Positions 4,216 through 40,856 of a stretch of DNA of 64,000 nt are shown piece after piece. Every line of letters begins with the position of its first letter. Position 1 is the stretch's first letter. Under the pieces are notes generated by a model, which did no database searches, was not told the DNA's origin, and saw only the letters and a program-made list of their open reading frames with translations. The DNA is from a virus. The position numbers and the translations under genes were made by a program. Where the stretch lies: IMG/VR virus record IMGVR_UViG_3300036770_004917, positions 1-64,000 of that record; one strand, written 5' to 3'.

Positions 4216-4388
4216 TAGTCCTCGCCGTTACTAAACTTGCCGGGCTTTTTCTTTTTTCTTTTCGACTGCATATCTTCGGAGTCAAGAATCTCCTCAATAT
4301 CATCAGCGCTACCGCGATAATTTTTGAGATGCTTAATCTCGGACCAGTCGTAATCGTCTTCGTCAAACGATGATGTATTTCTGGGCAT
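4215..4388 (-). CDS. Small acidic/basic hypothetical protein with one GSAD motif
   Basis: 57 residues if started at MPRN (4388), where GGAAG lies at a suitable distance. An in-frame ATG at 4412 has no ribosome-binding site and lies right after the capsid terminator. The protein is charged throughout, with an acidic start, the sequence RGSADDIEEI in the middle and a lysine-rich end. The GSAD motif is the same as that repeated four times in the protein encoded next, to which it is joined by TAATG. The two may act together or derive from one ancestral gene. No family was recognised. Confidence 0.55.
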   Translation of the reverse strand: MPRNTSSFDEDDYDWSEIKHLKNYRGSADDIEEILDSEDMQSKRKKKKPGKFSNGED

Positions 4389-4420
4389 GTCTTTCTTCCA
4401 CTTGTGTTGCATAAAGGAAA

Positions 4421-4455
4421 GACCCCCGGCCCGGCTTGCGCCGAAACCGGGGGTC
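4421..4455 (-). terminator. Rho-independent terminator after the major capsid gene
   Basis: Perfect 9-base stem GACCCCCGG (4421-4429) with CCGGGGGTC (4447-4455), with a further CGGC/GCCG pairing inside the loop. Read on the minus strand it is followed by TTTCCTTTAT. It lies 41 bases past the capsid stop codon, so it should end most capsid transcripts and set the level of readthrough into the GSAD genes. Confidence 0.8.
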
Positions 4456-4495
4456 CATACCTACTTCACTGGACTTTTCTATCCAGCGTCACCTA

Positions 4496-5803
4496 TCAGG
4501 CGGGCTCGGCGTCGAAGTCCACCTTGACGAAGGCCTCAGGACGCTTGACGGCGAGAGCCAGACGCTGTTCGGCCAGAACGACGATTGCGTTACGGACGAA
4601 GAAGTCGGCGTGCTGCTCGCTGATGCGGATGCTGGCCTGCTCGCGGTCGTACAACTGAGCGCCGGTTCCGAATGCGCCGACGAGTGCGGTGCCTTCGGGG
4701 ATGGCGGGGGTCTCAACCACGGGGATGCGCCACAACTTGGGCTCGCCACCGAGGGCCACGGACACTGCAACGAGGTACTGACCGTTGCTGTCCTTGGCGA
4801 GTTCGATGTCTTCCCAGTCGTTGGGGTGCATTACGACGCCAGTTGGCTCGTAGTAGGCGAGGAAGGACAAGGTTGCGGCGCGACGAATCGCATCGGCCTT
4901 GGTGTCCGGTACTGGGGTGGTGGCGCCATCGGACCAGGCGTATTCCTGGATGCCGGTGGTGCTGAGTACGCCAGTGAGGTTCTCGCCAGTGCCATCGCCG
5001 CTCAGAATCTGAGCGTCTTCCTGGAGGCGCAGACCGTACATCAACTCGTTGTCGATGATGCTACGAAGTTGTGGCTCATCGGCGAGTACGTTGCGGTGGG
5101 CTGCTTCCCAGTGGGCGATGGTGCGGACGGGAGCCTGCTCGCCTACGAAGGTGAAGGATGACTGGGGCTTGGCACCGAAGGCAGTACCGGCGCCATTGCG
5201 CTCGGCAACGGCAGCGGCATTGTTGGTGAAGCCGGTCATGCGGAAGTATTCAATGACGGCCGCGGTCGTGGTGCGAACTGGGAACAGGTCGCGAACGCGC
5301 TTGGTGCGCATTGGGGGAACCACGATGGGGTCACGCTGAATGGTGCCGAATGAACCAGGGGTGCCGGTGGGTAGACCCGAGTACATGTCCTTCACGTTGT
5401 AGCCACCAGCGGTGAGTACGGTATTGGTGACGTAGGGGGCGCTCATGTTTGCGCCATTACGTCCACCCTGAAGGGACTTGAACTCCATTGAGTTGATGAA
5501 CTCGTCGCCGACTGACTTGAAACTGGCGCGGGGGAATGCTCCACCAGCGGCAGCGGCTGCTGCTACTGAATTGGCTCCACCGTTGTTCCAGGTGTCGACT
5601 TCGCGGAGACCTTCGAGGCCATCGATGAGGCTCTTGATTTCCTTGATGTCGCGCATGTTCTTGTCGAACGCACTCTTCTGTTCAGTGCTTACGACGACGG
5701 TGCCATTCTCAATCTTGAATGAGTCGGCGATTGACTTGTTGTCTGCCATCTTTTGACGAAGTGCGCTCTGCAGTTCGTTTAGGCGGGAAGTGTCTTCTGA
5801 CAT
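4496..5803 (-). CDS. Major capsid protein, HK97 fold
   Basis: 435 residues, the building block of the icosahedral head. Residues 1-95 are a charged helical delta (scaffold) domain ending in a Gly/Ala linker. Two possible maturation sites, ASFK-SVGD (96/97) and MEFK-SLQG (109/110), fall where HK97 gp5 is cut (K103/S104). The rest has family hallmarks: LMYGLRLQEDAQILSGDGTG, then TALVGAFGTGAQLYDR, SEQHADFFVRN and RLALAVKRPEAFV. A GGAG site precedes the start, and a strong terminator follows. Its base composition is visibly more GC-rich than that of the giant genes upstream, as expected for a very highly expressed gene. It is unusual in lying about 47 kb downstream of its protease. Confidence 0.97.
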   Translation of the reverse strand: MSEDTSRLNELQSALRQKMADNKSIADSFKIENGTVVVSTEQKSAFDKNMRDIKEIKSLIDGLEGLREVDTWNNGGANSVAAAAAAGGAFPRASFKSVGDEFINSMEFKSLQGGRNGANMSAPYVTNTVLTAGGYNVKDMYSGLPTGTPGSFGTIQRDPIVVPPMRTKRVRDLFPVRTTTAAVIEYFRMTGFTNNAAAVAERNGAGTAFGAKPQSSFTFVGEQAPVRTIAHWEAAHRNVLADEPQLRSIIDNELMYGLRLQEDAQILSGDGTGENLTGVLSTTGIQEYAWSDGATTPVPDTKADAIRRAATLSFLAYYEPTGVVMHPNDWEDIELAKDSNGQYLVAVSVALGGEPKLWRIPVVETPAIPEGTALVGAFGTGAQLYDREQASIRISEQHADFFVRNAIVVLAEQRLALAVKRPEAFVKVDFDAEPA

Positions 5804-6450: not shown

Positions 6451-9400
6451 TCACTCCCATGGTCCGAATGTCTCATCTGCCAAAATTTTAGTAACGGCAT
6501 CTTTGGCCGTATAGTAACGAGTGTTTTCATCCTCAATATTACCAATTTTGTAGTACAAATATCGTGGAATTTGATGTTCGTTGCCGTTGGAGAAGTCGTA
6601 GACAGTGACGTTTTCCATTTCCATTCTAATCAGTTCTTGCATTAACTGATTGTGGCGTTTAGTAAGTCCATTCCTCAGCGATGAGGATGTTAGTGTTTCT
6701 GCTTGACGAAGAACATCAGCGATTTCATTTCGCAATTGTTCGTACTTATCCCACCCGTCGATGGCAACCTCCGCCCATGCGTGTCCATACCTGATACCCA
6801 TTGCCTCACCACCAGTCCCCAGTGGGATGCCATGAACAATGCGGATTTGGTCGTCAGAGAAATTGAATTCTGGCCCCCTGAGTCGCTGCGCCATAGTGAC
6901 TGCCATTTCGTAACAATCACCATCCCCATCGATTGGGTTTGAGCCATATGCTGATTTAAACCTATTGTCAAAGTTCTTGGATGACCTGGTACTGGCATAA
7001 AGCAACTTTTCAAGAACCGCCGCACGGTTTGGATACATTTCGGCGAACGAATATTCACGCCGGTCGCCATTTGCATTTGTTACGGAAGCAATATAGCCAA
7101 ACATTCTGTCTCTCAAAAACAGAGAAGCGGACTCGGCAAAGTCCTCTTCATATCTCTCCGATTCTCTCGCATATTGAGTTATAAATCTCTGACCAATACG
7201 TGGACCATGAGAACCATCGATGGATGGTGCAATATCTCGATAACTTGTCCCTGGGACGGATGTGGGCTGTTTTGCCAATCCACTGTCAGTTATGACAGCA
7301 AGCGGCACATTGCTCTGTCCAAACAAAATGCCATGCGACTCGTCTCCCTCCATTGCTGGAACCCAGTCGTCCGTAAGTGAACTGAACGCGTACTTGTTGC
7401 TATATGAGATTTCCCTATCATCAATCGCCGTCCGGAAACCAAGTGAGAAATCAACTGAGTGACCAAACTCATGCAACATTATGTCAACGTAGGGTGATTG
7501 CTCTGACGTTTTCCACATAACAATTGAATTGGCGTCGGGGTATGCTGTTCCTGAAACACGAGTGGCATCTATCCCATCTATGTTTCCAGCAAATGCGTCC
7601 GACTTGAAGATTATGTTTGGTCTCGGTATGCGCGGATTGATGTCGGCAATTGTTGTGTGGAAATTTTCCAGCGCAAGAACTATTGGTGCAATTTTTCCAG
7701 AATCACCAGATGGTGGGCGTATGTCATCAAAGGTGAAGACACCGATACCATTTTCATTAACTCTTGGGCTTGCTGCCCCCATACGACTCTTGATGGAGTC
7801 AAGTTCTGCCGCATCATCGATTTCAATAAGCGTCAATGAACCATCGGCATTGCGCACAACTACGGCATTGCTAATACCGGACATTTTGGCACCAGCAGGT
7901 ATGTCACTTACGAATAGGGCCTCGCCTGTTCGTAGCGTAGAAACATCGGCTTGGTGGAATATCTTTTCAGTTCTTCGTGTGGCAAGAATATTGCGGCGAT
8001 TATCTGTGCGCACGATGTCTGGTGGATTTGGTTTAGAACTATCAAATGCGTCTACTGCGAACAAGTGACGAGCAGAGACGCCAAGTCCGTCGTCACTTGG
8101 AACCAATGAATCCAATGAGGCAACGGCAAGCAGGTCTTGCTTGTACTTATCTAATTTATTTCTTTCACCCTTGGGGAAATATCCATCCGGTATGTCTGCT
8201 TCGGTCAATCCATCCAGAAGCGCTTGTGGATTAGCGAGGAACGCGTCTTTGGCGGAGGCATCCATGTATGCCCTGGAGCCATCTTCAGAAATCCGGAGTT
8301 GTGGGGTTAGCGAAGTAATGGAGCGAGTACTACGTCGTGAAACGATGGAGCGAGTTATATCGCTTGCGGTAACTGGATTTTGGCGTCTTTGCATTCCCCC
8401 AGTTGACCGACCCGACCTAGTGGCGGAAATATTACTCATGAATTGTGCCCTACGAACATCTTGCTCAAGGTATGCAAGATTGAATACTCCATTTGGCGTA
8501 TTTGTAATACGACTACTACGAGTACTGCGTAGTGGATTTGCGGGTTGCGTATTTAGGCTATCTATGAAGTCTTGCACCGTTCCAGGCCACTCATATATGG
8601 CCTTTTTTATCCCTTTGTATGTAGAATCTTGATTCACAAGCATAATTTTTTTCAAATCTTCCCCAGCATCGGTGCGGAGTTGATGCATGAGTTGGTTTGC
8701 CCCATATGTATCTAGCCACCATCTCGCCACCCTGTCTCTTTCATCAGCATTTAGACCTATATCGGGGTGGTTGGTGATGACCGAAACCATTGCTAATGCA
8801 TTGGCCCATTCTCCATGTCTGTCAAATCCGCGACCAGTACCCAGGTGTCCAATTACGTCATGGATTCCGTCAGTTCCTTCTAAATTATTAATAGCCCTGC
8901 GCGGATTCTCCAAACTGTCAAGTAGGTATGGTGCAAAGTCGGCGAATTTTGTGTATTTGATTTTTTCTGGTCCAGCACCAACCTCGTCAAGTTTGTCCAA
9001 TACTATTTTATATAGCGACTCTCTAGCAACGCTAATTGCTTCACCTATACTTGGGTCCCAGTCGCGTTCAAATTCCTGAGCCTGCTCAATAATGTTTCTC
9101 ACGGCATCAGCCGATGGTGCTTCTACATATGTCCAATCACGTCTATCGGGGATTATTGAATTGAAAATTGGGTGTGGCTGAGATGTGATTACTGGAATAC
9201 CGTTAGAACTCACACGAATTGATAATGACTCTGCTATTTTTTTACCAGTTTCACCAATTGATATGTCTGGTTCAAGGTCATCAATCTTTTGCCTGATATA
9301 GAATCTATGATTTCTTTGCTCCGCGTAGTAGCGGTCGAGCACATCTCGGGGGACGGAACTTCCAGCGAGAATATTTTTTGCTATCTCTGCTTCGCGTTCA

Positions 9401-12400
9401 TCCAACTCCAGATTTTTAATTATTTCATCTTCGGTTTGCTCAGCAAGTAGGTAGGTGTCTGTTCTTGACCTGGTTGACTGAGTGTCCCTTCTCGCCCTGT
9501 CCTCGTCAACTAGGCGGTTGATTCTATCCAACGCATCTTCGTCGTCATTGCCAGATTGACGCTGTGAGTCAGATGAACGTCGACCACCACCACCAGACTG
9601 GTTTGAAGAAGTACGGCGCCTAGGGTCTGAAGGTGGACCGAAAGCCTTTTCCCATTCTGCCATTTTTTCATCAATGAAGTCTTGTTCTGGCGGGTTGGGG
9701 TCTATGTAAATTTTCGTACCAGGTGTTCCACGGAAACGCATAACCTGTGGACCGACAATAAGTGTTGATTGGATTTCGTCATATTCGTTGGCGAATACGA
9801 GTTTCACGCCTGACTCAATTTTTGCCTTTTCCCCATCGGCGAGATTCAGTGGCTGGAATCTCTGCTTTTCGTCTTCCGTCATTGGTCGGTTCTTGTAAGT
9901 CCTAAACAAAGAACTACGAGTTGAGCGCATTGAGGAAAGTTCCCCCTGCGACGAAATAACTGGGGTCTTGTCACGCTTGCCGGGCTGCAACCTTCCTGTT
10001 GCTGGCTTGCGATTCTTGTCGTCAAGAAAATCACCATGAAGGATGTTTTGCAATTGTGGAAGGCTCTGAGCAACCTCACGGTTTTCGCGTAATTCATCCA
10101 GCGCTTGCGAGTGTAGGGCATCTAGTTCTTCATATTTTCTTGCCGCAGAACTTGCTTCTCTCCATGCCTGAATCGCCGAGAGACTTTTCATGAAGTCTGG
10201 TTCTGCCTCACGTATCTTTTTGAATCTGTCAACGAATGAGCGCTTGTCATCCGCCCTGGCAGACTCAATGAGAAGCATTGAACGATTGGTCATGCCAGGA
10301 ACGCGGAACTTGTTTATTTCATTTGATGCAGAATCCCTCAGGGACTCAATGAAGTCGGCAAACTCCTGCCGTTCTGGTCGTTCTAGTCGCATGTCAAGCA
10401 GTTCGCGATACATTGACGACATATCCTGAATTAGTTGTGTCTTTTCAGAACTGGAGAGGCGTGACGGACTGGACAATCTGTCGCTCAACTCGCCAATATG
10501 TGTCGCAGCACCATACGAGGTGGTGCGCGACATGGACCTTGTTCCAGCAAGACCACGGTCACGAAGGTCTTTGGAAATCATTGATGTTGGTCCATCCCAG
10601 ACGGCGCCCCTTAGCGTGGCGTTGTCAAGCCTGAGTTTGCCTAATGGCAATGAACCAAGGTGCGCATTCGTTAGGTCTGCACCACGGAGGTCGATTGCGC
10701 TGGTACGTAGTGCTTCGGGGTCAAATTTTGCACCAGAGAAATCTGCTTGCCGGAGGTCTGTTCTCCTCATGTCCAGCACGCCGCGAATTTTTACTCCACG
10801 GAAACTCGCACGACGCAATGTGCTGCCACCAAATGACACATCCTGAAGGGTTGAACCAGTAAACCGTGCGCCGTCCATCCATGAATCTGTCATTTTTACA
10901 TCTGACAAAGATTGTTTTATTGCGGAAAAACGGTCCATGTATGATTTAGTGATTGTGGAGCGCCGAAGAGCCAACCACCCAGAGTCAGAGATTTTGGAAG
11001 CAGTAGCATCTAGTCCAGAAATTGGGCTCCCATCCGATGGCGCCTCGGGAATGTCAATTGCCCTTATGCCAAGTGCAATCTGGCGTGCCTTGGCATAGTT
11101 GCTGTCGGCCCTATTGATTGGGGTTGTGCTTTCAGCGTTTACCTTGAATGAATATTTTCCATTTTGGTTTACAACCTGACCCTCTGGAAGCGAAGCAATA
11201 AACTGCTGTATTTGCGGAGAAAATTTTGTTCTATCTGTCCATGAAATACCGGAACCAAGCATTTGTTCTGGCGTAAGTCCAGAATTGTTGAGGTCCGCTA
11301 GGTCAAAATCAACTCTCTCCAATATTGCATCACGCAAATTGATTCCACCCACTGTGGCTTTGGAGAAATCAACACCGCGCATCGATGTTTCGCCAAAGTC
11401 AACATCGACAACTTCACTGCCTTCAAACGCCACCCTCTCAAGGGAAGTGCGTCGCATGTCGCTTCCTCTTGGGATTTGGGTATTCCGAAACGAAACCCCC
11501 CTAAGTATGGAATTACGCAAAACAATAGGATTAGATGTTTTTAGATTATCTGCCGTAACAGAGAAAAAGTTTGCACTAATCCATTCTGAATCAGATAGGT
11601 CGACATCGCTCCCCAAAATCACATTCGATAGTTCTGAATGAGATGTGCGTTTGCCGATTATGTTTTTTCTCAAAATTGTTGCCTTTTTATTAGGCGGTGA
11701 CTCAATCACGAGCCTTTCCGGCAAATTTCTATTTTGAGAAGACCGAGTGGAATTTCCATAGTTAAATGATGAACTGCGAGTTGAGGCAAGAACAGAGCCA
11801 GACACCCTCTGGGCCATTTGCTCTTCCCAGTATTTCTCTACGGCACGAGAACCATCTTTCCCAAAAAACTCATCGAATACCTTACGATTTATGATGTCAA
11901 ATGTTCCATCTTCGCGCCTTACTGCAGCGAGGCTTGCGTTCCCTTCACCCTGTGAATTGTCCCAAAGGTAAAACTCGTCCATATAGCCATTGGTAATCGC
12001 TTTGCGGACTTTGTATTGAAGTTCGGCAGCATACTGTGAAGCGAGATTTGTGGGAAGTTTGACTCCGCCCTGTTGTCCGCGAGTAGCCATTCTCTCTTCG
12101 GCAATACTTGTTGGGACATGGACATAATGGCCGATAACCCTGTATCCGTTATCTCGCCCAATCAACATCTGGTCAACACGCGTGCCTGTTCCGGTGACTG
12201 TATAGTCACGACCTTGCGCTGCAGCCTGTCGCATCCCATACAGCGCCCATTGGGTTGACCAGCCATGTACGGCGCTCGCCCCACGACCACCATCCCAGTC
12301 GGGATGCATTGTCTTAATTATGTCGGGGTCAATGTCGACTGCTGTATCAGCACCCGGAACGCCTGACAAAATTCCGCTTGTGCGTAGTGTTGTTTTGCCA

Positions 12401-14742
12401 GAGCCTGTTGTTCCGCCAATAAACCACATTGTCGGCGTAGATGATGCATTTTCTCCAGTTGCGCGAGCGAATAATGAGTCCAGTGCGAGTTGGCCCAACT
12501 CTCCATTGCGCCGCGCCTCCTCTGCTCTGGCGAGAGCCTCCGTTACATCGGTGTTGTAACGTGACCTAGTAGAAATGCGCTGATTACTTACGAATTGGTC
12601 GACTACATCTGGCGGCAGCCTCAGCAACATCCTGTCCGGAGAGTCGGCAATGTACGTCGGGTTATTGAGTAGCCAGTCATGGGCCTCTTTTTCTGATTTG
12701 GACATTGGCCCGAGAAGCAGATTACTTACACTTCGCGTTGAAAATGAGCGTGCGCGTTCCGACAATTGGGACTGGTTTCGCTCACCAACGAATGTCATAA
12801 ATTCATTTACGCTCATGCCTAGGACATTTGCCATATTGGCGATGGCTGTATTATCAACACGCATTCGCCTGCCTGGGTCATCATCGGTAAATGCAGCAAA
12901 TGACTCAGCAAACCACTCTATTCGTGCAGTTTCCGCATATTCACTTATTCTACGAGCAGAGGCTCTCTCCTGTTCAGAACCCCAAGTTACGGACCGGTAG
13001 AGCGCTTCTGAGAATTTTGCCGATGCATCATTGCCACGACCCTGTTTCAGATTCTCTTGTAGTTCCGAATATAGGGAAATCAGGTAGTCGCGAGCAGGGC
13101 CACCCTGTTTGGCGGCCATAAATTGCCAAGCGTGTGCAAGTTCGTGTCGTATCAATGAGTCGAGGTCTTCGTCCCTAAACATTGAGTCACGAACACGACC
13201 GGTTACTGGGTCAGGAAATGCGCCGGAGTTAAATGCTATGAATCCCGTTGGTGCGTAACCCCCGATTACGCTCTGCCACATACGTGGACCTGCAGTGAGG
13301 TCAATAAATCCCATATTGTCAATATCTGGCTCATACCCAGTCACAACAATTGGAGGCATGCCATAGCGTCTAACCGCATTGCGGACACCTGGATTCCTGA
13401 ATAGTTCATCCTGGATAATTTTTCGTACCAGCAAAGTCGCTTCGTAGTCTGGCTCAGCGGCAGTGATTCGCTCGTAAATCCGTTTTGCATTTTTGCGTGT
13501 GTATGGACTGTTCTTGAGCGCTTGCATCAACTCTTCGTTAGAACCTGGAACTAGTTGGGCAACAAGGTCATTTAGTTCACCGGCGCCCAAGAATTCATAT
13601 TCATCATCCACTGCATCAAGGGCCTTCATTAGTGTTGATGCGTCCCTCTTGCCCATTCTTTCCGAGCCACGCGATATTTCTAGGTCAGCATCGCCAAATG
13701 CAATACGCCCGTCCTCCATGACGGTATTCTGCGTATAAGTTGGTTTCTTTTTACGCGGACTCAAAACATCGCGCAGTTTGGACAAGAGTGGGTCTTCTCG
13801 TTCGGTCGGAACGTCATTTGGGGTAACCCCTATTATCTGGGAAAGAACATTTTTGTCAATTGCGCCGTCAACAGATAGTCCACTTCGTCGATTCTGTTCG
13901 TTGGCGAGTGCCGTTGTTCCAATCAGATTCTGTACACGGCGTCCAGTCCCCTCAGGAATAATGAATCGTGGAATGATGGGGCGTTCAAGTGGGAGTCCTT
14001 CAAAAACGATTCCATCTTTGTCGGCATCTATTGCCCCAGTTACATCAATAAAAACAAATCCGCTCGGCGCAGCGCGAAGCCCACGGCCAATTCGTTTGCC
14101 AACCTTTGGTCCAAGTCCCTTTACCTGCATTGAGTCAGCGCCATGAAGGTCGTCATAAAGTGACTTTTTGCGAGACCTCATTGTTTTTGGTTGATTACGC
14201 TTGACTACGTCCGCGATAAATCGCTCTGTACGTTTTTGCATATTTCGGCGACCAAGGGCAGTGCGGCCTGTCCTATTTGCCAAATCTGTCATATTGGTGC
14301 AGGGCATCCAGATTGTTCTGCCAGAACGGGAAATTCTCCTACTGACGCCAATGCATCCAAGTTGACGCGACCTATCACGTGCGGCCTCGATGTCCGTAAA
14401 GACATCTGGGTCTTCATCGCGTGGTGCGGCCGGTTGATATTGCTTACCAACTACGCCAGAGACAAGTCCGCCACCAGCGAGGGTATCAATTGCGACGATT
14501 CCACGAGAACCGAGATTCTCCCATTGGCGCTGCATGTTGTTGTTGCCGCGCTGTTGACGGCGTGGTGCAGAAATAGGCCCCATGGCAGATGGGCTACTAG
14601 GGACAATTTTGGCCAAAGATTCTGCGCTTGAACATGGACGCCAAACTCCATCGCTCGTCTGATGAGCGCCAGAGCAGCCAAGTTTCTTTGCCTCACGTAG
14701 GGCCTTCATCTTTGCTGCGGTAGTTGACGTAACCGCGTTCAT
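6451..14742 (-). CDS. P4: giant STRS-punctuated polyprotein (2763 aa)
   Basis: An uninterrupted ORF with at least six domains and nine STRS linkers (668, 724, 987, 998, 1607, 1756, 2073, 2138, 2584). In order: two GCxGx...WxPC repeats (20-151); KGLG and the shared DADKDG...LERPIIPRF module (206-262); HELAH metallopeptidase (533-537, AES at 612); zeta-toxin-like kinase with P-loop GGTTGSGKTT (776-785) and DIDPD; pentapeptide-like repeats (1035-1150, 1278-1385); unknown domain with HDVIGH and FDRHGEW (1961-1979); HEFGH metallopeptidase (2424-2428, AES at 2536); C-terminal papain- or transglutaminase-like domain with Cys2610, His2654 and Asp2716. No signal peptide or membrane segment. It lies between the prohead protease and the capsid gene. 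Likely a packaged multi-effector precursor (inference). Confidence 0.9.
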   Translation of the reverse strand: MNAVTSTTAAKMKALREAKKLGCSGAHQTSDGVWRPCSSAESLAKIVPSSPSAMGPISAPRRQQRGNNNMQRQWENLGSRGIVAIDTLAGGGLVSGVVGKQYQPAAPRDEDPDVFTDIEAARDRSRQLGCIGVSRRISRSGRTIWMPCTNMTDLANRTGRTALGRRNMQKRTERFIADVVKRNQPKTMRSRKKSLYDDLHGADSMQVKGLGPKVGKRIGRGLRAAPSGFVFIDVTGAIDADKDGIVFEGLPLERPIIPRFIIPEGTGRRVQNLIGTTALANEQNRRSGLSVDGAIDKNVLSQIIGVTPNDVPTEREDPLLSKLRDVLSPRKKKPTYTQNTVMEDGRIAFGDADLEISRGSERMGKRDASTLMKALDAVDDEYEFLGAGELNDLVAQLVPGSNEELMQALKNSPYTRKNAKRIYERITAAEPDYEATLLVRKIIQDELFRNPGVRNAVRRYGMPPIVVTGYEPDIDNMGFIDLTAGPRMWQSVIGGYAPTGFIAFNSGAFPDPVTGRVRDSMFRDEDLDSLIRHELAHAWQFMAAKQGGPARDYLISLYSELQENLKQGRGNDASAKFSEALYRSVTWGSEQERASARRISEYAETARIEWFAESFAAFTDDDPGRRMRVDNTAIANMANVLGMSVNEFMTFVGERNQSQLSERARSFSTRSVSNLLLGPMSKSEKEAHDWLLNNPTYIADSPDRMLLRLPPDVVDQFVSNQRISTRSRYNTDVTEALARAEEARRNGELGQLALDSLFARATGENASSTPTMWFIGGTTGSGKTTLRTSGILSGVPGADTAVDIDPDIIKTMHPDWDGGRGASAVHGWSTQWALYGMRQAAAQGRDYTVTGTGTRVDQMLIGRDNGYRVIGHYVHVPTSIAEERMATRGQQGGVKLPTNLASQYAAELQYKVRKAITNGYMDEFYLWDNSQGEGNASLAAVRREDGTFDIINRKVFDEFFGKDGSRAVEKYWEEQMAQRVSGSVLASTRSSSFNYGNSTRSSQNRNLPERLVIESPPNKKATILRKNIIGKRTSHSELSNVILGSDVDLSDSEWISANFFSVTADNLKTSNPIVLRNSILRGVSFRNTQIPRGSDMRRTSLERVAFEGSEVVDVDFGETSMRGVDFSKATVGGINLRDAILERVDFDLADLNNSGLTPEQMLGSGISWTDRTKFSPQIQQFIASLPEGQVVNQNGKYSFKVNAESTTPINRADSNYAKARQIALGIRAIDIPEAPSDGSPISGLDATASKISDSGWLALRRSTITKSYMDRFSAIKQSLSDVKMTDSWMDGARFTGSTLQDVSFGGSTLRRASFRGVKIRGVLDMRRTDLRQADFSGAKFDPEALRTSAIDLRGADLTNAHLGSLPLGKLRLDNATLRGAVWDGPTSMISKDLRDRGLAGTRSMSRTTSYGAATHIGELSDRLSSPSRLSSSEKTQLIQDMSSMYRELLDMRLERPERQEFADFIESLRDSASNEINKFRVPGMTNRSMLLIESARADDKRSFVDRFKKIREAEPDFMKSLSAIQAWREASSAARKYEELDALHSQALDELRENREVAQSLPQLQNILHGDFLDDKNRKPATGRLQPGKRDKTPVISSQGELSSMRSTRSSLFRTYKNRPMTEDEKQRFQPLNLADGEKAKIESGVKLVFANEYDEIQSTLIVGPQVMRFRGTPGTKIYIDPNPPEQDFIDEKMAEWEKAFGPPSDPRRRTSSNQSGGGGRRSSDSQRQSGNDDEDALDRINRLVDEDRARRDTQSTRSRTDTYLLAEQTEDEIIKNLELDEREAEIAKNILAGSSVPRDVLDRYYAEQRNHRFYIRQKIDDLEPDISIGETGKKIAESLSIRVSSNGIPVITSQPHPIFNSIIPDRRDWTYVEAPSADAVRNIIEQAQEFERDWDPSIGEAISVARESLYKIVLDKLDEVGAGPEKIKYTKFADFAPYLLDSLENPRRAINNLEGTDGIHDVIGHLGTGRGFDRHGEWANALAMVSVITNHPDIGLNADERDRVARWWLDTYGANQLMHQLRTDAGEDLKKIMLVNQDSTYKGIKKAIYEWPGTVQDFIDSLNTQPANPLRSTRSSRITNTPNGVFNLAYLEQDVRRAQFMSNISATRSGRSTGGMQRRQNPVTASDITRSIVSRRSTRSITSLTPQLRISEDGSRAYMDASAKDAFLANPQALLDGLTEADIPDGYFPKGERNKLDKYKQDLLAVASLDSLVPSDDGLGVSARHLFAVDAFDSSKPNPPDIVRTDNRRNILATRRTEKIFHQADVSTLRTGEALFVSDIPAGAKMSGISNAVVVRNADGSLTLIEIDDAAELDSIKSRMGAASPRVNENGIGVFTFDDIRPPSGDSGKIAPIVLALENFHTTIADINPRIPRPNIIFKSDAFAGNIDGIDATRVSGTAYPDANSIVMWKTSEQSPYVDIMLHEFGHSVDFSLGFRTAIDDREISYSNKYAFSSLTDDWVPAMEGDESHGILFGQSNVPLAVITDSGLAKQPTSVPGTSYRDIAPSIDGSHGPRIGQRFITQYARESERYEEDFAESASLFLRDRMFGYIASVTNANGDRREYSFAEMYPNRAAVLEKLLYASTRSSKNFDNRFKSAYGSNPIDGDGDCYEMAVTMAQRLRGPEFNFSDDQIRIVHGIPLGTGGEAMGIRYGHAWAEVAIDGWDKYEQLRNEIADVLRQAETLTSSSLRNGLTKRHNQLMQELIRMEMENVTVYDFSNGNEHQIPRYLYYKIGNIEDENTRYYTAKDAVTKILADETFGPWE

Positions 14743-14749
14743 TACTGAA

Positions 14750-15091
14750 TCAACCTCGCGTTGCTAGGTGAATCTGAATATCATCTTCTGACGCGCCATC
14801 CATGGACATTGCCATCTCCGTGGCTTCGTCAGAGTCAAATGGATATCTCACCATCCACAGGGATGCTTCCTCAAACTCCTGTGCATATTTCTGCATGACG
14901 TCCGCTTGTTTCTGCAGTTGCCACTCTACAACTTCTTCGACTGAGGCATTTTCTGGGAATTCTCCACTACTAGCCATCTTTATGGCCTCAAAGTAGAGTT
15001 CGCTATTTGTTGAAAATGGTGGATACCTGAGCATTGTTCCTAGAACTCGCTCTTGCTCCATCCATAATTTCATGTTTTCCGATAGTTCCAT
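14750..15091 (-). CDS. Small acidic hypothetical protein
   Basis: 113 residues, acidic and helical, with no cysteine cluster or known motif. It sits between P3 and P4 with gaps of four and seven bases, so it is translated from the same message. Its Glu-rich helices could act as a chaperone or immunity partner for one of its giant neighbours, because antitoxins are often small acidic proteins encoded beside toxins. No sequence evidence goes beyond position and composition, so this is only a suggestion. Confidence 0.6.
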   Translation of the reverse strand: MELSENMKLWMEQERVLGTMLRYPPFSTNSELYFEAIKMASSGEFPENASVEEVVEWQLQKQADVMQKYAQEFEEASLWMVRYPFDSDEATEMAMSMDGASEDDIQIHLATRG

Positions 15092-15095
15092 GGCG

Positions 15096-18000
15096 TCAGT
15101 CTACTCTCTCTCCGTTATTGAGTTTTTTAACGAGTGCTGGGTCTAGTCTGCCACCTGTTTTTATCGCTTCCTCTACAGCGTCTGTCATCCCTAGGCCACC
15201 AACACCACCGTATGTTATCAATTTCCCACGGTTCATAACCAGCATGACTCCACTATCCATTCTTAATGCATCATAACCAAGGAATGGAGCGAGGTAGTTC
15301 TGTAAGAGTCCATTTGTACCCTCAACGAAGTAGCGCAGTGCATCGAGTGCATTGGCTCGTTCGTCTGGGTTTGATGCATTCCGAACAGCGCTAACAAGTT
15401 GTGAAATAACCTGTCCACCCTTTGTTTGCCAACGTGCATCGCCTTCCGGTATGGATGCGTAAAGCCGTTCTTCCAGTAGTTCAGCAAGTTGTTCAGCGGC
15501 TGCTCCAGTTTTTCTGTTACGCCACTCTCTCGGCAACGACGGGTCCTTGAGCGCAGTAGAAATACCACCACTAACGGCATTCATTTCTCTCTTAATTTGT
15601 TCCAACTCAGACTTACGTATGATTTTTGCATCCGCAGGAAGAATTGCCATAAGGCCACCAGGTCCTGGCTGTGTTCCTTTTTTGCCCCTTTGGTTGTCCT
15701 CGGTGACATATCCTCGCCAACCACCATCGGGTGACGTATTCCCACCCTCAATCCGGACAGCCCAGTATTCTCCAGGACCCTGCATTGTCCCACCGTCTCC
15801 AGTGGTGTGTCTTTGGACGTCGTCCATGTACCGTTCGGCGAATGTATGTCCACCGAAACCACGTCTAATTACTATGTTGCCTGAGTCTTTTGCTAGTTCA
15901 AGAAACTCTTCTTCGGTAACGACCGTTGGACGCTCCTGCATGCCATTGAGGTCCCAGATGCTTCCGAGGACTCTGTCGGCTTTCAGGTTGCTGGCCTTGA
16001 GTTCTTTCTCTAGTTTTTGCCTCTTCTTCTCATCTTTTTTGTCTTCCTTGGACAGTTCCCCGGACCTTGGTGCACGAGTTAGAAGTTCCAAGTCAGCAAA
16101 TTTAGACAAACTATCCTTCGATAGCGTTGGGCTGCCATCGTCGGCAAGGACAAATGCTGGAGTTGGCTGAGTTTTCCTGGTATGTGCCTTAAGGATTTCT
16201 GCAGAATCTCTCTTTTTGCCAGCAAGCAACTTAAGTCTATCCGCCTTAATGCGCTTGAGTATTCTGAGTTCCTTGGCAGTTTTGTCGGCTTCTTCCGCAC
16301 GTCCTCCGTAGGAAACCTGGCCCTTCTTCAGTCTCTCCAGGCGTTCCCTACCTTCTTTTCTCTTCCTGAGGCGCTCATTGTGACGCTTTACCCAACCTTC
16401 TGCATCTGGTCTTATGAACTTGGCAAGTGAGAGTTTGCGCCAGAATGAATCGCCACGAATCGCCGATGCGTCATCGTCAGCAATACCAAGTGCACTCTGT
16501 CCCCAAAGTTGAGATGAGTGGTCAAAATCAAGATTCACATCATCACCAACAATGGGACCATCACCAACAATGGAGTCAGCATTGGGTCGCGGATTACCAT
16601 TTGAGTCATAGATAACTCTATCGTCACCCATTCGCCAGCCGAATGCACTTGAATCCGGCAAGTCATACTTTGATGAACCGGATTTTTGGTCGTGATACCA
16701 CTCAAATACTTCAGGGAGTTCACCAGCATCAAACTTTGCCTTCAACTCCTTGTATTCCTTGGAGTTGTAGCGAATTGCCTTATTGTTTTTCCCCTTTTGG
16801 GTAGTTGCCCACTTGCGGAAAACCTGATTTTTTGCGGCTGCGGCACCAGTAAGTGAACTTGGGCTACCGAGTAATTCTTTACGCATTGAAGATGGTAATT
16901 GCTCAGCAACAAATGCAAGACTGTCGCCGCCCTCTTCGTTCCTCCCATTATTTGAGTTAATTCTCGCACCGGCAAGAACTAGAAGTGCCGACGTCTGGTC
17001 ATCAAGCATTTTGATTTTGTCATTTATGTCCTTGAGTTGCGTTTTCTTCAATCCAGGACTCAACTTGTCATTTGCTTCTATTGCGTCGCGCTTCTTGAGT
17101 AGGAGTTCACGAACTTTTCCATGTGTTGCCGAAAGTCGTGCCAGTCCCTTATCGCTGAGTGCAAGGCGCCACTCGCCAGTAACTGGGTCGCGCTGCGTCG
17201 TAAGGAGTTGATATCTCGCGAGGGAAGCAAACTTCTGTGCCTGCCGTTTATTTTTGGCAGTAACAGTTTTTTCCGCTGTCTCGCCCCATAGGTTGAAATC
17301 GGCTATGTCGCCGAATAGGCCAACGAATTCATTGGTTCTTCCGGCGCCCTCAATCGGCGTCAGTTTGGCACCTCTTGTGGTATCAAGCATCGCAATTTGC
17401 TGAATTTCTCCATTTTCATCAATTGATGCAAAGAGGTTGCCAGCGCCACTAACCGCCTTAATGAGACTCTCCTCCATCTCAATTGCTCGCGACTCAGTGA
17501 GTCTGCGTTGCTCTGGAGTAAGGGATTCCCACAATTGGCCGTCTTGTTCGTCAATTCTTCTATGCCCTGGAGATTTCAGTCCGTCAATTGCGGTATCGCG
17601 CCCGCTGCGGAGAGATGAACCCATGTCGATGTTGGCAATTCTCTGGCGCTCTGAAACACTTCTAGTAGATGGTCCTGCACTCCCGATGCGACGACCCGCA
17701 TTTCTGGCACGACGACGTGCTGCAACTTCACGACCCGCAACACGAATTGATGCATTTGGATTGTTCATCAACTCATCGCTAATTAGTCTTCGACGCTTAA
17801 TCTCAGCGTTGGCGCGCTGTAGGCGTTTTCTTAGTCGCTCAAGTTGTTCTGGAGATGGCGAGAGAACAGAAGAACTGCGTGTTGATGCAAGCATTCTCAT
17901 GTCTGCCTCATCGAGGTCATCTGGACCGGTCATGTAGAAATCAATTGCTTCTTGTGCGTCTTCTACACTTGGGAAGGACCTGTCGAGCCCACCGGCAACT

Positions 18001-21000
18001 TGTTCTGAACCTGAATCAAGTTCAAAAATGTTTTTCCACGTACCATCGGCAGTGCGTTCCTGACCATCGACTGAGTAGGAGCCATCTTCGTTGCGGAGGA
18101 TTTCAAATCTGGCATTGCCGTCATTGCTTCTTCCACGACTCACAACCTCGCCATTGGCCGTGTCGCTATATCGTGGGGTGGTGTTGTCTGACCCGGGGCG
18201 ATTAAAATTAACCAACTTGCTGCTGCGTGTTGACTTTTGCAGACTTGCGCCATATCCAGTACCTGGCTCAAATCCACCAGCAAACATCTGTGCATCCGCA
18301 TCAAACGCTGGAGAATATCTGTAATCATTTCTTGTCGGCATGCGTCGCAAAGAAACACCCTGCTCATTGGCGAAGTTGGTATCATTGGCATTCATTGCAA
18401 ACTGGTTGTATCCACGCTCAAATGCGGCGCTTGATTCATATGAGCGTTTTTCTGAACGAGTACTAAGTAGTAGATTGTTTGCATCTTCTTCTGAGATTTC
18501 TGGCAAATCTTCCTTATCGGCATCCCGTATCTGGCGATAATCCCAATCACGAACATCGTCAAGGAATTGGGGACTGCTGGCATAGTCCTGGAAAGAAGGC
18601 TCACCAGCATCCACGTCTATGCCTTGTTCGTCGGCATATCCGGGAACATTGTTTACGGAATTCAACCAGTTATTGTAATATTCGCTAGATTCTTCAGAGA
18701 ATAGGAATCCATCAATAACGCTACCCTCTGGATACTCGCGTCGTCCAAGGTAAGGAACTCTGTCCTCGTTTTGAGCAACTCCTCTACGGCTGCGCAAACT
18801 GCGAGTAGAAGCACGGTCCGCCGCAGCAGAACGCAGGCTTAGGTTGCCACGCCCATCGTCGTCGCCATTCATGCCATTCCAGGCATTGATTCGCATTACT
18901 TGGATGGCATCCCAGTCACGAACATCGTCGAGGAACTGGGGACTACTTTCGTAGGATGCACGAGATGGCGAGACACCCTTTTCTACGCCCTGCTCTTTTG
19001 CGTATGCCGAATTGAGTCTAGTTAGTCGTGCCCATCTGCTGAAGTTGTCTTCAAAGTCGCCCGACTCTTTGTATGCATCAATGACTGCTGGTTCTGGCTT
19101 TCGGTTGCGTCCCAAGCGAGGAATTCTGTCTTCTTTTTCAAGATTCAAATAACTTGAGCGATTGTTTCTGCGTAGCAACCCTGTTGCCTTACTGCGCTGG
19201 ACAATATCTTTGAATTTTGCAATAAATCGTGGCTGACCGGGAGATGGAATGTCAAACATATGTCCACGTTCAGCCATTTGCTGAGTAACAAAATATCCAT
19301 CACTGTCCGCGACGCTCTGCAATAGTTGTTTCAAATTCCCCAGAGGTTTCCTGTATCGTTCTGGCAGTTGCCCAGCCTCCATTTCGCCATTGAAGACACT
19401 TACCGTCCGGAGTGCCGCATCAAATTCATCGCGAGACATAATTATTGAATCAACGCCACCGATGGCATTTTCCACAGTGTCATACAGTGCTGCGATGCTG
19501 TTCGCATCATCGGAATCGGCAAGAGCCTCAACTTCATCAAGATTAATAAGAATGTCGGCTATTGAGTGAAGGTCGTCGCTGAGGTCCCCAAGTTGCGATA
19601 GCGTCATGCTTACTTCAACGTTCGTGTCATCTTCACCATCGCTACGTGCTGAACGGATTGATGCCAATGATGGGCGCTTTCCTGGGAAATTGAACGAGCC
19701 ATCGTTGGTGAATTCGGAAGCCGGTATCTGGAATGGCACTTCACGTCTAATTGATGCTTGATACTCCATATCGTACTTGTCGAGAATTTGCTTAATTGCG
19801 CCAAACATATTCCTATCGCGCAGCGCAGCAACTACGTGCTGATATTCCAATGAATTCGATGGGCCCTCACTTCTGGAGAGTTCGCTCCACCTATTGGCCA
19901 AGATATTGAAATACTCTTCAAGTAATTGCCTGTCAGACATGCGTTCAAAATCCGCATAGTGAAAACCATCTGCCGGTCGTGCCAGTCGGAGGTCTCCATC
20001 GCGTTGAGCCAATGAAGCGGAGCGTGAACTCTTGATTCCATTGTTTCTGTCAGCCATCGTTCTTCTCGTGGAGAGGAGTTGACGGCCCGGTTCTGCGGAT
20101 GTCAAATACTCAAGAACGTCGTCGTATTCCATGTCCTCTGGGCCGTCTACGTACTCCCGAATGGCTGCCTCGGCATCATCGATGGTTGAATAGGTTCCAT
20201 CGATATTGTTCATGGATAGTCGTGAATCGTTTACTTCCACCCCGGAGAAACCAACCAGATTCCATTTGCCATCTGAGTCGCGCTCTCTTCCGACAATCAC
20301 ATAGTCGCCATTTGGGGTGAGAACGATTTCTGCATCAAAACCGCCCGATGAATCGCTGCCACGCATCACAACCCTACCGTCGACGGCATCCGAGAAGCGG
20401 GGGGTGGTGGAGTTTTTGCGCGAAACCGGACTCATGACCACTGACCTGGTTGACGGTCCGTGCAAATCTTTATCGAATGTGTCGCGAGGCTGACTGAATC
20501 TGAAAATTGATGGAATTAGTGTCCTTGATTCACTGCGACTTACTTTTTCGCCACCCGGCGAAACATCGCTTCCCGAAACATTCACCCGAGCACTGGGCTC
20601 ATATCCTTCGAATCTGTCCGCAATATCTTTTGCCATCTTCTGACGAGCGCTAATGGTATCCACAAACAATTTGCGCATCTGTGGGGGGACTCCAGCATCG
20701 CCCATTTCTTGGTCAATCTTCTGCAGATTCAAATGCTCAACACGTCGCATGGCGACGACTAGGTCATTGTTTGATACGCGGCCGTATAGGTTTGAGATAT
20801 GCTGACCACGAATCGGTGCGCCAGGCATGTAAATCATAGTGGCGACGTCATCCCATGGAGCATCTGGGCTAAATTCTGGCTTCTTGCTTCCACCCTGTGC
20901 CCTATATGGTCCAGCCCCACCGGTATCTACTGTATAAATAACACCAATTGGGTCAACCATCTTGTTATTGCCACCACTCCAAGCATCTCTGACCTGAAGA

Positions 21001-24000
21001 AGCATGTCAATACCCATGTCCTGCTTTGCTTGGGCACGCACTCTGCCTGATGGGCTTGATGTATTTTGGAGATTGTCAACCTTTTCGCTGACCACCCAAG
21101 TGTCTCCGGCCTTGTCTTTGATTATTGCCTTGTGGGGAACCCCTGCACCGGCAACTCTATATACTGCAGCACCAGCAACTTCTGCTTCTGCATGACCATC
21201 AGAACGTCCGCGCTTAGCAAAGAAAATTCGTCCAGTGCTATCGTCCTCGAACCAATATCCCTCATTGAGTCCAGTTGGCCCTGGGATGCGGCGCATTGTA
21301 TTTAGGTCATCCCATGTTGGCAGCGACACACCGCTTACAACCGGCCCACTATATGGCGAGGCGCTGCGGGTTGAGGCGACACCAAAAATTTCCTTGAGGT
21401 CACGAGGTGTGACAATGTCATTGCCAATGCGTATGTAGTTACCAGCGCCCATATTTCGTGCATTTAGGAGATTGCGAATCTCTCCAGAATCAGTGACACT
21501 TGGAAGAATTGTGTCTACCCAGTTGTCCCAATTGTCTGAGCCGAGCGAAGGGGTAGCAACTGAGCGGGCAGACCGCGTTGACTCAGTTTGTGGTTTTGCC
21601 TGCTTTGCAAAATCTTGCACGCGCTTGCGCAATTCATCCTTAATCGCTTTTCCGCGTGGGGTGTTATACCCTTGCAGGTGGTCGAGGACGTGGGCGGTGA
21701 TTGATGCAGCACTCAACTTGCCCCAGGAATCATTCATGGATGTCAATCCCGCAAATGTGCCATAGGATTGGTGCGGACCACCGTTGTTTTGGTCACCCTT
21801 AAGCGGTATCGCTAAGACGTCGGCCCTAATCATTCTTGCAAGTTCATACAATGGCGCTTTAGAAATTTCACGCAATTCTTCTGGGGATAGTGGCTCGCTG
21901 CCGGTTCTGGCGGCCCGTCTTCCACGCTTAATGCTGCGGTCGAACAGAAGTGCGCTAACTGCCCTATTGACCTGGTTGTCGCTGGGCGATGTCTTTCCTT
22001 GCCGGGCAAGCCAAATTCTTGCAACCTGTTCCAAATCAATGACATCGTCGGCCTCCATTTTCAGGAGGTTTGCCAATGTGGGCAATCCGTCTGCATCAAG
22101 AGAGTTAATATCATCATTTGGCACAATGCCGGAACGGAGACTGCGCGGGAATGACTGTCCCAAAAGGTCACGTGGATTGAAGGGCTTAATTCCTTGTCGT
22201 TTATTTCTCTCGGCAATAGCACCTTCAAATCGCGTATCTGGGTTTCCGCCGATTCCCGCCCTGCTGCCTTCGTTGATAATGTCATCAAGTTCTTTGTCTG
22301 ACATCTCTTCGAAGTTGATACCTAGTAGTCGCTTGACATCCATTGGGAGGTCATCTGCACGGCTGGCCCCTTGGCCTGTTGCGCCCGGACCTGTGAATGA
22401 ACGAGCCGAACGAGTCGATGGCACCCTCTGGGCATCTTCGAGGTTTGCCCCATCAAAATACGATTCGCCAGTATCGTCAGGGAATTTGGCATCAGTCAAA
22501 TTTGCATCAGTAAAGTCGCTATCGGAAATTCGTGATTCCGTGAAATCAACATTCTCCAGATTTGCTCTAATAAATTGTGTCCCCGTAAAAGATGAACGGC
22601 CAAAGCCTGCCCCTGCCAGGTTGGCATTTGTGAGGTCTGCTTCGTTAAAACTTGCACCACTCACACCTTGGCCCGAGGTCTCTGATAGATTTGCTCCCGT
22701 CAGATTTGCCCTATTGAACCAAGTATTTGAGATATTGGCTCGGTTGAGATTTGCTCCACTCAGATTGGCCTCAGTGAAAGTTGCACCATTAATATTCGTG
22801 CCTGACAAATCAGCATCCGTCAAGTTTGCCTTATTGAAATTTGCAAAATCAAATGTTGCTTCTCTTAGGTCCGCCCCACGAAGGTTGGCCCCAGTAAATG
22901 ATGCATCGTAGAGATTTGCTCCAGTGAAGTCAACAGATACGAGTTCCGAATCTGACATGTCGGCACTATCAAGGTTGGCGTTTTTGAAATTTAGACCAGT
23001 CAATCGCATTCCGGACATATCTGCGCCACTGAGGTCTCGGTCACCTTGAAGTTCTTCGAGAATCTGCTCTTCCGTTGGTGCTGCGCCCTTCCATTTTGTT
23101 GATTCCAGGCGAGAAGAACGCAGGCTGACTGATTCGCGCCTACGTTGGTCGCGGCTTCTTAGTGTCTTGTCTGGGGCATGCTTACCACCACGCTCGTATT
23201 TGAAACCCTGCTTTTTGATGTCGTTAAGAATGCGCCCAAGGAAGTCGGGGTTCGACTCCAACTCCCGAACCCAGTTGTCGTCTACATCTTTATAGGTATA
23301 GGTTCGGCCGCCATTAAAGGTAACAATTAGTTCCTTGGCATCATCGTCCCATGAGATTTTTTCAACAGCACGCGAACCCTCGGTGTTGATTTGAGTTTTT
23401 CCACCCTTGCCAACCCTGCTTGCACCAGCGCGACGTGCGTTCATTATCGCCCCTCTGGCACGGGCTGGGTCGAGTGGGTTGCGGCTTGCAGTAGCGCCAC
23501 TCGGTACGAATCTTGAAAGCCTTGATGAATCGTCCCCAAGAAGCACCTGAATCTGCTCACTCACGGCAGAAACGTCACTATCGGTCAGTCGACCTGCACG
23601 ACGCAATTTTTCATTTTCTTCGGAACTTCCCTCAAGGAGTGAAGAAATTTTTCTGCCAAGATTTTCGGGAACCGTAAAACGTGGGATGATGGGACGCTCT
23701 AGGGGCGTGCTCTCGAATACGATTCCATCTTTGTCGGCGTCAATTCGGCCAGTTACGTCAATGAACACCAAACCGGCTGGGGCGGCACGAAGTCCACCAC
23801 CAAGGCGGCTTCCGAGACGCTGGCCCAATTTTTTGACCTCAATAAGACCACCAGTAATATCTCTATTTTTGATGAGAGACTTATGGGCGACATCGTTCAT
23901 GCCAACAACCCGCTGTGCTCCCCTGGAGATTGTGGCATCAACCTTCGCTTGCATGTGTCGCGAGGAAATACCGTCAATACGCGAACGTACTAAGCCTGTT

Positions 24001-30400: not shown

Positions 30401-30736
30401 TTTGACTTCTTCCTCACCCAAACTCGTGATTATCTTTGCGCCAACGAGCAAATCATCACCTATCGGCTGTGTTTTTTTGAGAAATATTCTGTTCCACTTG
30501 TCTCGTTCTTCTGGGGATGAGCCAGGAGACCATAGAAACTTATGAAATTTAGAAAACTTAAGTTCTTGTATTGTCGGCGTTGTAGTAATGAAATGGAAAA
30601 ACTTAACAAAATCAATTTGTCCATCCGGGGAAACGACGGCGCCATCAAGCATCTGCTCACCATATGGCCGCAGAAGGTAATAGACCTTATTCCCTTCGTA
30701 TGCCCCAACGAGAATGGCTTTTGTTTTTACAGCCAT
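27482..30736 (-). CDS. Large protein with HESAH metallopeptidase-like motif (1084 aa)
   Basis: ATG at 30736 with AAGGAG six bases upstream; it overlaps the end of P2 by ten bases. Residues 153-157 are GFKAL and 168-190 are a variant of the P1/P3/P4 module (DGDGDGFVDDG, then MRPFIPGF). Residues 549-553 are HESAH, followed by a long helical region. GEFVAESAVADF at 1024-1035 could supply the third zinc ligand, as in the other metallopeptidases of this block, although the 470-residue gap is long. It is visibly more AT-rich than the giants and lacks STRS linkers, so it may belong to the same packaged set but be used as a single protein. Function beyond a likely zinc site is unknown. Confidence 0.7.
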   Translation of the reverse strand: MAVKTKAILVGAYEGNKVYYLLRPYGEQMLDGAVVSPDGQIDFVKFFHFITTTPTIQELKFSKFHKFLWSPGSSPEERDKWNRIFLKKTQPIGDDLLVGAKIITSLGEEEVKRKDYRIRADEFRRKIASTGSLPMEKTVLSRKSVFNMRGIVGFKALGPLLSGKPSVDGDGDGFVDDGLPTMRPFIPGFDFLPDSSTNTSLRSITTRRADKAADRSATREEMLSAIDDVAGIVSRRHNDGKKIKTRKDAMDILKRLIPSFGLSPNDKARSSIEFLDSKADSDSLKPWELAYINQFLLMFGDDASRNEVTWRLRSMDPRIAAQGAGGYTSVPLGAKDWEFSQKFSDEGPRLLPKKNRKPLMTIGYSAETDKQNSRIYLLGLLMKQDKRNFTALSYAISKALRDDLNEMPDKSKIMNALQYKYGLDIEPGIASMSEIINQLLQGNNLIGAESQVPSSALGQDLLQTIWNVVNNSADAIAQVDSSFDKDLLVSRTLRAIQQGSIADILKSLRKTREAYQNSLNSPGLKMHLANGEELLDKWLTVNSKLVGVHESAHGLHFLRILESNRKKAQKLRDEYLQRYIDRQKEAGLTPETFKELQKQLPIEAFYTDVFKDEIREYAQNSPELLRRDILMLTTGGTAGRLIPDFQKLNGTSESLVGLTSTITSAIEIIKMQPPGVGRYDAARAMGAIGPFSVAGFMAKNPDSIGKSNFDDLVKQAKAEMVEQFIQQMESWLGQPIFMGDKPVALNGYMADLLNKMQASIPEVSGILGLDSILEFKAGDSITPAIASLLINPAIQKREQSARRNIMRGIRMFESDGSDSLTLGKVSPAIVLSTLGFPDIKGDDGNVMGGGRPEDVKPLIDALIGVSSLVRETEKQLQMGVQNIEQAMSSRSEPDAVDLPSSFGDISLSEFMEMPIDDVLEKLFTGIDDSLSAVANAINSGTMSSRLWENFEIMPKTGRTELSPLNQSEIKIINDIARKIGLPAGVQSSAGGTGLSSLPAQGYSSYQATLTDPTTWLGSTKWSIGEFVAESAVADFMGIPFSQIADSGLITRELTNEELQVLNKLMQWVFSGRLPSDRMSEAFNP

Positions 30737-40833: not shown

Positions 40834-40856
40834 TCCGGGCTCCAATCCCGACTGTA

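Follow-up and report, generated by a model that had tools for sequence, protein, structure and literature searches.

A zeta-type kinase domain within a giant head-module protein of an uncultivated phage

The head module and P4

The window analyzed here is the 64-kb stretch made up of positions 1 to 64,000 of the 86-kb viral record IMGVR_UViG_3300036770_004917, and our subject is P4, a giant open reading frame (ORF) of the phage head module in which a zeta-type kinase domain is embedded. The module lies on the minus strand and contains a portal gene, an S78 prohead protease gene, four giant ORFs with smaller genes interspersed, and an HK97-type capsid gene (Table 1). P4 adjoins the capsid gene and combines the zeta domain with pentapeptide and DUF3721 sequences and two HExxH motifs; several disparate domains thus share one polypeptide linked to head genes, as is characteristic of polyvalent proteins. 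We propose that the kinase, a P-loop enzyme of the zeta family, is one cassette of a virion-head "polyvalent" polyprotein that would be packaged by means of a tag, cut at STRS tetrapeptides and delivered together with the DNA. We put the probability of this reading at roughly 0.55, a figure that, like the gradings given in words below, reflects judgement and was not computed.

A tail sheath gene is present in the record, outside the window, and the phage is therefore probably a myovirus. The closest named capsid proteins are those of Brevibacterium phage Cantare and of Gordonia phages, which makes an actinobacterial host likely.

TABLE 1 Features of P4 and of the surrounding head module (window coordinates)
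Feature	Coordinates	Strand	Remarks
P4, 2763-residue giant head-module ORF with zeta-like domain	6451..14742	-	Fourth giant ORF; directly upstream of capsid gene
Zeta-type kinase cassette, P4 residues 728-986	11785..12561	-	Pfam PF06414, AlphaFold (AF2) model, spacer-to-spacer
Walker A GGTTGSGKTT, residues 776-785 (Lys783)	12388..12417	-	Lys in 56/56 homologs covering the site
DIDPDIIK, residues 803-810; Asp807 = zeta general base Asp67	12313..12336	-	Invariant in 56/56 homologs
GTGTR, residues 851-855; Thr852 = zeta T118 kept, Thr854 in place of zeta R120	12178..12192	-	
Lid helix HVPTSIAEERMATRG, residues 875-889; Arg888 = zeta R158	12076..12120	-	Invariant in 58/58 homologs
STRS spacer upstream of kinase, residues 724-727	12562..12573	-	Aligns with G[MFL]RS in relatives; low-confidence model stretch
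STRS spacer downstream of kinase, residues 987-990	11773..11784	-	Disordered tail of model
Second STRS downstream of kinase	11740-11751	-	
P4 N-terminal carrier module, two DUF3721-like repeats	14143..14742	-	Stand-alone head gene in some zeta-less relatives
Candidate cargo tag DADKDGIVFEGLPLERPIIPRF, residues 239-260, pattern DADxDG...ERPIIP	13963..14028	-	Disordered; after carrier
HExxH metallopeptidase-like motifs in P4, candidate self-processing domains	13126-13146 and 7456-7473	-	
113-residue acidic ORF: conserved partner gene linked to zeta, candidate for an antitoxin or an assembly chaperone	14750..15091	-	Separated from the start of P4 by 7 nt
Major capsid protein (HK97 fold)	4496..5803	-	Pfam PF05065, 167 bits; directly downstream of P4
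Giant head ORF: 9 STRS spacers, tag, pentapeptide repeats, KTSC	15096..24467	-	
Giant head ORF: 5 STRS spacers	30727..40845	-	
Giant head ORF: 10 STRS spacers, tag, NUDIX domain	42581..52549	-	
S78 prohead protease, candidate spacer-cutting enzyme	52552..53934	-	Pfam PF04586, 52.3 bits; heads giant spacer-bearing ORF in relatives

P4 carries a kinase domain of the zeta family

The original prediction, made from the sequence alone, placed a zeta-like kinase in residues 728-986 of P4 on account of GGTTGSGKTT, DIDPDIIK, GTGTR and the helix HVPTSIAEERMATRG, all of which agree exactly with the translation. The Pfam family Zeta_toxin (PF06414) matched the domain with 42.2 bits against a cut-off of 22.3, whereas AAA_33 gave 22.5 bits, under its cut-off. 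A profile built from 29 homologs matched the zeta chain 1gvn (E = 2.6e-15), and all 29 aligned homologs matched the Zeta_toxin family. Structure prediction, which had been suggested as a check against known zeta toxins, pointed the same way: the AF2 model of the domain (predicted local distance difference test [pLDDT] score, 84.6) superposed on zeta 1gvn with a Z score of 17.0 (201 residues, 2.8 Å) and on PezT with a Z score of 16.7, zeta and PezT being aligned over 195 to 201 residues. Polynucleotide kinase (PNK) chains reached Z scores of 14.6 to 15.0 over about 155 residues. Loss of the catalytic Asp and Lys/Arg had been named as an outcome that would speak against a zeta kinase; Lys783, Asp807, and Arg888 are intact. 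The zeta layout and its embedding within the P4 head polyprotein are thus upheld, and we consider a zeta-fold kinase within a head polyprotein to be highly probable.

Ratios of nonsynonymous to synonymous substitution rates (dN/dS) were mostly 0.07 to 0.17 among the pairs for which they could be computed, with synonymous sites saturated in many pairs, suggesting that the domain is under purifying selection in most computable pairs. Two close pairs, however, gave ratios of 0.34 and 0.72.

Relatives were gathered via the capsid protein; when the domain or the whole of P4 served as a single-protein query, viral contigs gave no matches. Alignments of the domain were also used for scanning; one of 29 rows proved too diverse, while one of 11 rows worked and found a single cellular contig, a 4-kb piece of an Acidimicrobiia metagenome-assembled genome that also carries a capsid gene. 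The position of P4 recurs in relatives: of 57 distinct loci, 29 have zeta in the ORF immediately upstream of the capsid gene. Among named phages, a search with the domain returned only Bacteroides phages and cyanophage P-SS2. A stand-alone zeta-like kinase is annotated as hypothetical in the Bacteroides phages DAC19, DAC20, and DAC22 (at about 5740-6585 in L082). The L163 record also encodes, in the order reported, a class II ribonucleotide reductase (2614-4539) and a protein resembling 3'-phosphoadenosine-5'-phosphosulfate reductase (8145-9281).

A small acidic gene upstream of P4 is linked to zeta

In the original prediction, no epsilon-like antitoxin gene was recognized next to the kinase, and its confinement in a polyprotein and a closed capsid was suggested as a possible means of control. 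As regards epsilon, the first claim holds: PF08998 was not found in the 86-kb record or in 25 related records, the profile having passed its cut-off in 0 of 14 control genomes. No epsilon gene lies next to zeta, as would be the case in an epsilon/zeta system (PezA was not searched for by profile), and an unrelated small gene is present. This conserved upstream gene of another family had been overlooked. Its 113-residue product contains 23 D/E and 8 K/R, and the family has no Pfam relative, no convincing solved-structure relative by sequence and no similarity to epsilon. With a small acidic family upstream that is linked to zeta, control by the polyprotein or capsid for want of an antitoxin is not supported in the form proposed; the polyprotein may help to control the kinase, and a dedicated partner gene is an equal candidate.

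The partner family was found at 65 loci, every one of which is zeta-positive. By the same search, 23 of 27 zeta-positive records had it, as against none of 25 zeta-less relatives. A scan seeded with the partner family alone recovered 19 contigs, in each of which the following ORF carries zeta, the seeds being zeta neighbors themselves. Three observations weigh against the link. The capsid tree provides only five independent contrasts, 3 to 4 of them concordant and 0 opposed (sign test, P = 0.125). In some divergent relatives, the partner precedes the DUF3721 carrier gene and is not adjacent to zeta, and in four zeta-positive records the partner was not found by profile, although one (L042) was recovered by an iterated profile.

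The 113-residue protein could instead be a chaperone for head assembly or cargo loading, to which we give slightly less than even odds. Its position in front of the carrier gene in the divergent relatives fits this role, as do the unrelated small genes found at the same place in many zeta-less relatives and the lack, by sequence, of similarity to epsilon or to a known fold. What speaks against a chaperone is that the partner was found in none of the 25 zeta-less relatives that share the capsid family, the carrier being retained in most of them. The small genes upstream of zeta-less carriers were also considered as diverged partners and were rejected, as no similarity was found. An antitoxin role for the partner is put forward tentatively and is judged somewhat less likely than not.

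STRS spacers delimit the kinase and recur in all four giant ORFs

The ends of the kinase coincide exactly with two flanking STRS tetrapeptides (residues 724-727 and 987-990), the upstream one aligning with G[MFL]RS in relatives. The four giant head ORFs contain 33 copies of STRS against 0.46 expected by shuffling, and the motif is absent from all other window proteins tested; a wider count that took in all TRS copies found 45 where about 5 were expected. When overlaps are counted, there are 35 copies with 30 codon spellings among them, indicating selection on the peptide and ruling out DNA-level repeats as the origin of the motif. The repeated spacer differs by phage, being G[MLF]RS, G[MLF]SS, or SGRM elsewhere. 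In most relatives with an S78 match, S78 is the first domain of a giant ORF and is followed by the tag and then by spacers. In L149, L150, and L153-L160, giant ORFs of 1650 to 4433 residues begin with the fused protease.

This pattern looks like that of a polyprotein with protease sites, and we consider the chances of cleavage at STRS to be a little better than even. Two points weigh against S78-dependent cleavage. TRS was sought in the capsid protein, portal, and protease (including STRS in the capsid cleavage region) and was not found, so nothing ties STRS to S78 in this phage, and the two HExxH zincins within P4 are rival cutters. Motifs of the STRS type could also serve as flexible linkers or mark recombination joints, with P4 staying intact in the virion. 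Such a role would agree with the lack of a match in capsid or portal and with the hydrophilic surroundings of the motif, seen in three of the four giant ORFs and not significant in P4. We nevertheless consider it rather unlikely, as the peptide is strict while codon choice is free, the lineage-specific motif is common to separate giant ORFs of one phage, and S78 lies within the same chain in many relatives.

A carrier module and a candidate head-targeting tag precede the kinase

Most relatives have the carrier module of the P4 N-terminus in a head gene, in some cases by itself; its structure model (pLDDT 66) was too weak for a structure search. Tags of the DADKDGIVFEGLPLERPIIPRF type also occur in ORFs 15096-24467 and 42581-52549, as a variant in ORF 2257-4215, and in 36 ORFs of relatives. 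Among carrier ORFs, the tag was present in 18 of 18 that bear zeta versus 2 of 25 that do not (Fisher P = 3e-10, uncorrected for kinship). DADKDGIVFEGLPLERPIIPRF is a candidate head-targeting peptide.

Lying downstream of the capsid gene, ORF 2257-4215 matches DUF6321 and carries the tag variant DADGDGTIQEGTDYARS at residue 390; it looks like a further head cargo protein. In the zeta-less L022, L026, L031, L036, L050, and L071, the same carrier bears another shared C-terminal domain, RRGAGAFSVSHRPGM. The carriers with RRGAGAFSVSHRPGM lie upstream of the capsid gene, and the small genes upstream of them are unrelated.

The packaging of a zeta-like domain can be compared with cyanophage P-SS2, whose ORF030 (ACT65592; PHROG 16619, minor head protein) consists of MuF and zeta by Pfam. 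A mean of 96.5 peptides of this protein was obtained from purified particles, the highest among the values considered from Table 2 of that study (PMC2784084), and these proteomics data support the reading of P4 as a virion-packaged polyvalent protein. The paper labels ORF030 as the major capsid protein, and we considered whether it is a capsid fusion; the capsid profile gave no match, and Pfam identifies MuF. The kinase of P4 is probably packaged and delivered.

The substrate pocket has diverged from that of zeta

In zeta, D67, E100, T118, R120, and T128 contact UDP-N-acetylglucosamine (UDP-GlcNAc), and Asp67 is the general base (PMC3062530). The original prediction placed the P4 kinase among the zeta kinases that act on this substrate. 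It would then be a classical UDP-GlcNAc 3'-kinase with the genuine activity of zeta and PezT, and its delivery would serve to poison peptidoglycan synthesis. Zeta/PezT is indeed the nearest fold, the equivalents of D67 and T118, as well as of K46 and R158, are retained, and in many relatives the contacts are changed only conservatively (E100 to D, R120 to K). Counting against this activity, the P4 residues at E100, T118, R120, and T128 are L, T, T, and Q, with T118 alone kept, and R171 is replaced by V. UDP-GlcNAc is thus not supported as the substrate in the way first stated, and we regard it as doubtful. AvrRxo1, a zeta-fold effector, uses a different small molecule, which shows that the substrate cannot be read from the fold alone.

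A polynucleotide- or tRNA-repair-like kinase, partnering the RNA ligases that are encoded in some related actinophage head modules, appears improbable. The Z scores of the PNK chains and the annotation, in Cantare and Gray, of an RNA ligase close to the portal gene are compatible with it; however, zeta and PezT align over a longer stretch than PNK, AAA_33 stayed under its cut-off where Zeta_toxin did not, and an RNA ligase was not seen among the scanned ORFs of the record. It is similarly improbable that the domain is a structural relic, serving a minor head protein as a folded spacer without an enzymatic role, for although it sits in a structural gene and its substrate-pocket residues have drifted, the catalytic Lys, Asp, and Arg are invariant in 56 to 58 homologs, dN/dS is mostly low, and a partner gene is linked to zeta.

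Proposed route of the kinase

In the proposed scheme of a packaged and processed kinase cassette, the tag would take P4 into the procapsid, where a head protease, most likely S78, would cut at STRS to free a kinase of about 29 kDa. This kinase would enter the next host together with the DNA and phosphorylate one of its small metabolites, which may be a nucleotide sugar or a different nucleotide derivative; wall synthesis could thereby be slowed or metabolism rewired. Within the producing cell, the polyprotein, and probably also the upstream partner, would hold the kinase back. Since the partner has neither spacer nor tag, it would stay unpackaged, and the delivered kinase would act freely. A more far-reaching version, which we think unlikely, is that the lineage packs true polyproteins, with toxin-like and other enzymes as cassettes behind a common tag, cut by the capsid maturation protease at a phage-specific tetrapeptide, and with a dedicated unpackaged antitoxin for the kinase that spares only the producing cell.

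If the scheme is correct, injected polyvalent proteins become a testable mechanism, in which exact positions of cleavage follow from the spacers, packaging from the tag and an antitoxin from the small upstream gene. The scheme would also show how a toxin-related kinase can be stored by a phage without harm to the cell that builds the virion, and for a large family of uncultivated phages the cassette content of giant head genes could be read directly from their sequences.

Comparison with known systems

With the epsilon/zeta and PezAT kinases (PF06414; 1gvn, 3q8x, and 2p5t), the P4 kinase shares the fold, the Walker A motif, the general-base Asp in a DxD motif, the GTG strand, the lid Arg, a C-terminal DEFYLWDN strand, and a small acidic gene upstream. 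It differs in being a domain of a virion-head polyprotein, in its changed UDP-GlcNAc contacts, and in that no epsilon homolog was found, the partner showing no sequence relationship to epsilon in the comparisons made.

AvrRxo1 (4z8q and relatives) combines a zeta fold with delivery into another cell and a substrate other than UDP-GlcNAc, as may also hold for the P4 kinase. Its delivery is by bacterial secretion, not by a virion, and identity is low (16 to 17%). P-SS2 ORF030 has a zeta-like domain in a large head protein, and the detection in virions applies to P-SS2 (PMC2784084); its carrier is MuF, whereas that of P4 is the DUF3721 module, and the two are distant in sequence.

The internal proteins of T4 and the ejection proteins of phiKZ and SPN3US are head cargo with propeptides and capsid-targeting sequences, trimmed by the prohead protease at a lineage-specific motif before ejection (PMC5694885). 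There, processing is mainly propeptide removal, whereas the motifs of P4 would split the chain into many cassettes.

A parallel in kind is offered by the polyvalent proteins. In the account of Iyer et al. (2017; PMC5512222), zeta-like kinases are predicted in injected polyvalent proteins and in MuF fusions. Common to those described there and to P4 are unrelated domains in one head-linked protein, HExxH zincins, a zeta-like kinase, and predicted packaging and injection. Compared with that description, the present phage has four parallel giant ORFs with a phage-specific tetrapeptide and a shared tag, as well as a linked small gene, and S78 is fused into the cargo chain in relatives. The kind of system is thus already known from the predicted injected polyvalent proteins; what is new is the code of spacers, together with the tag and the gene linked to zeta.
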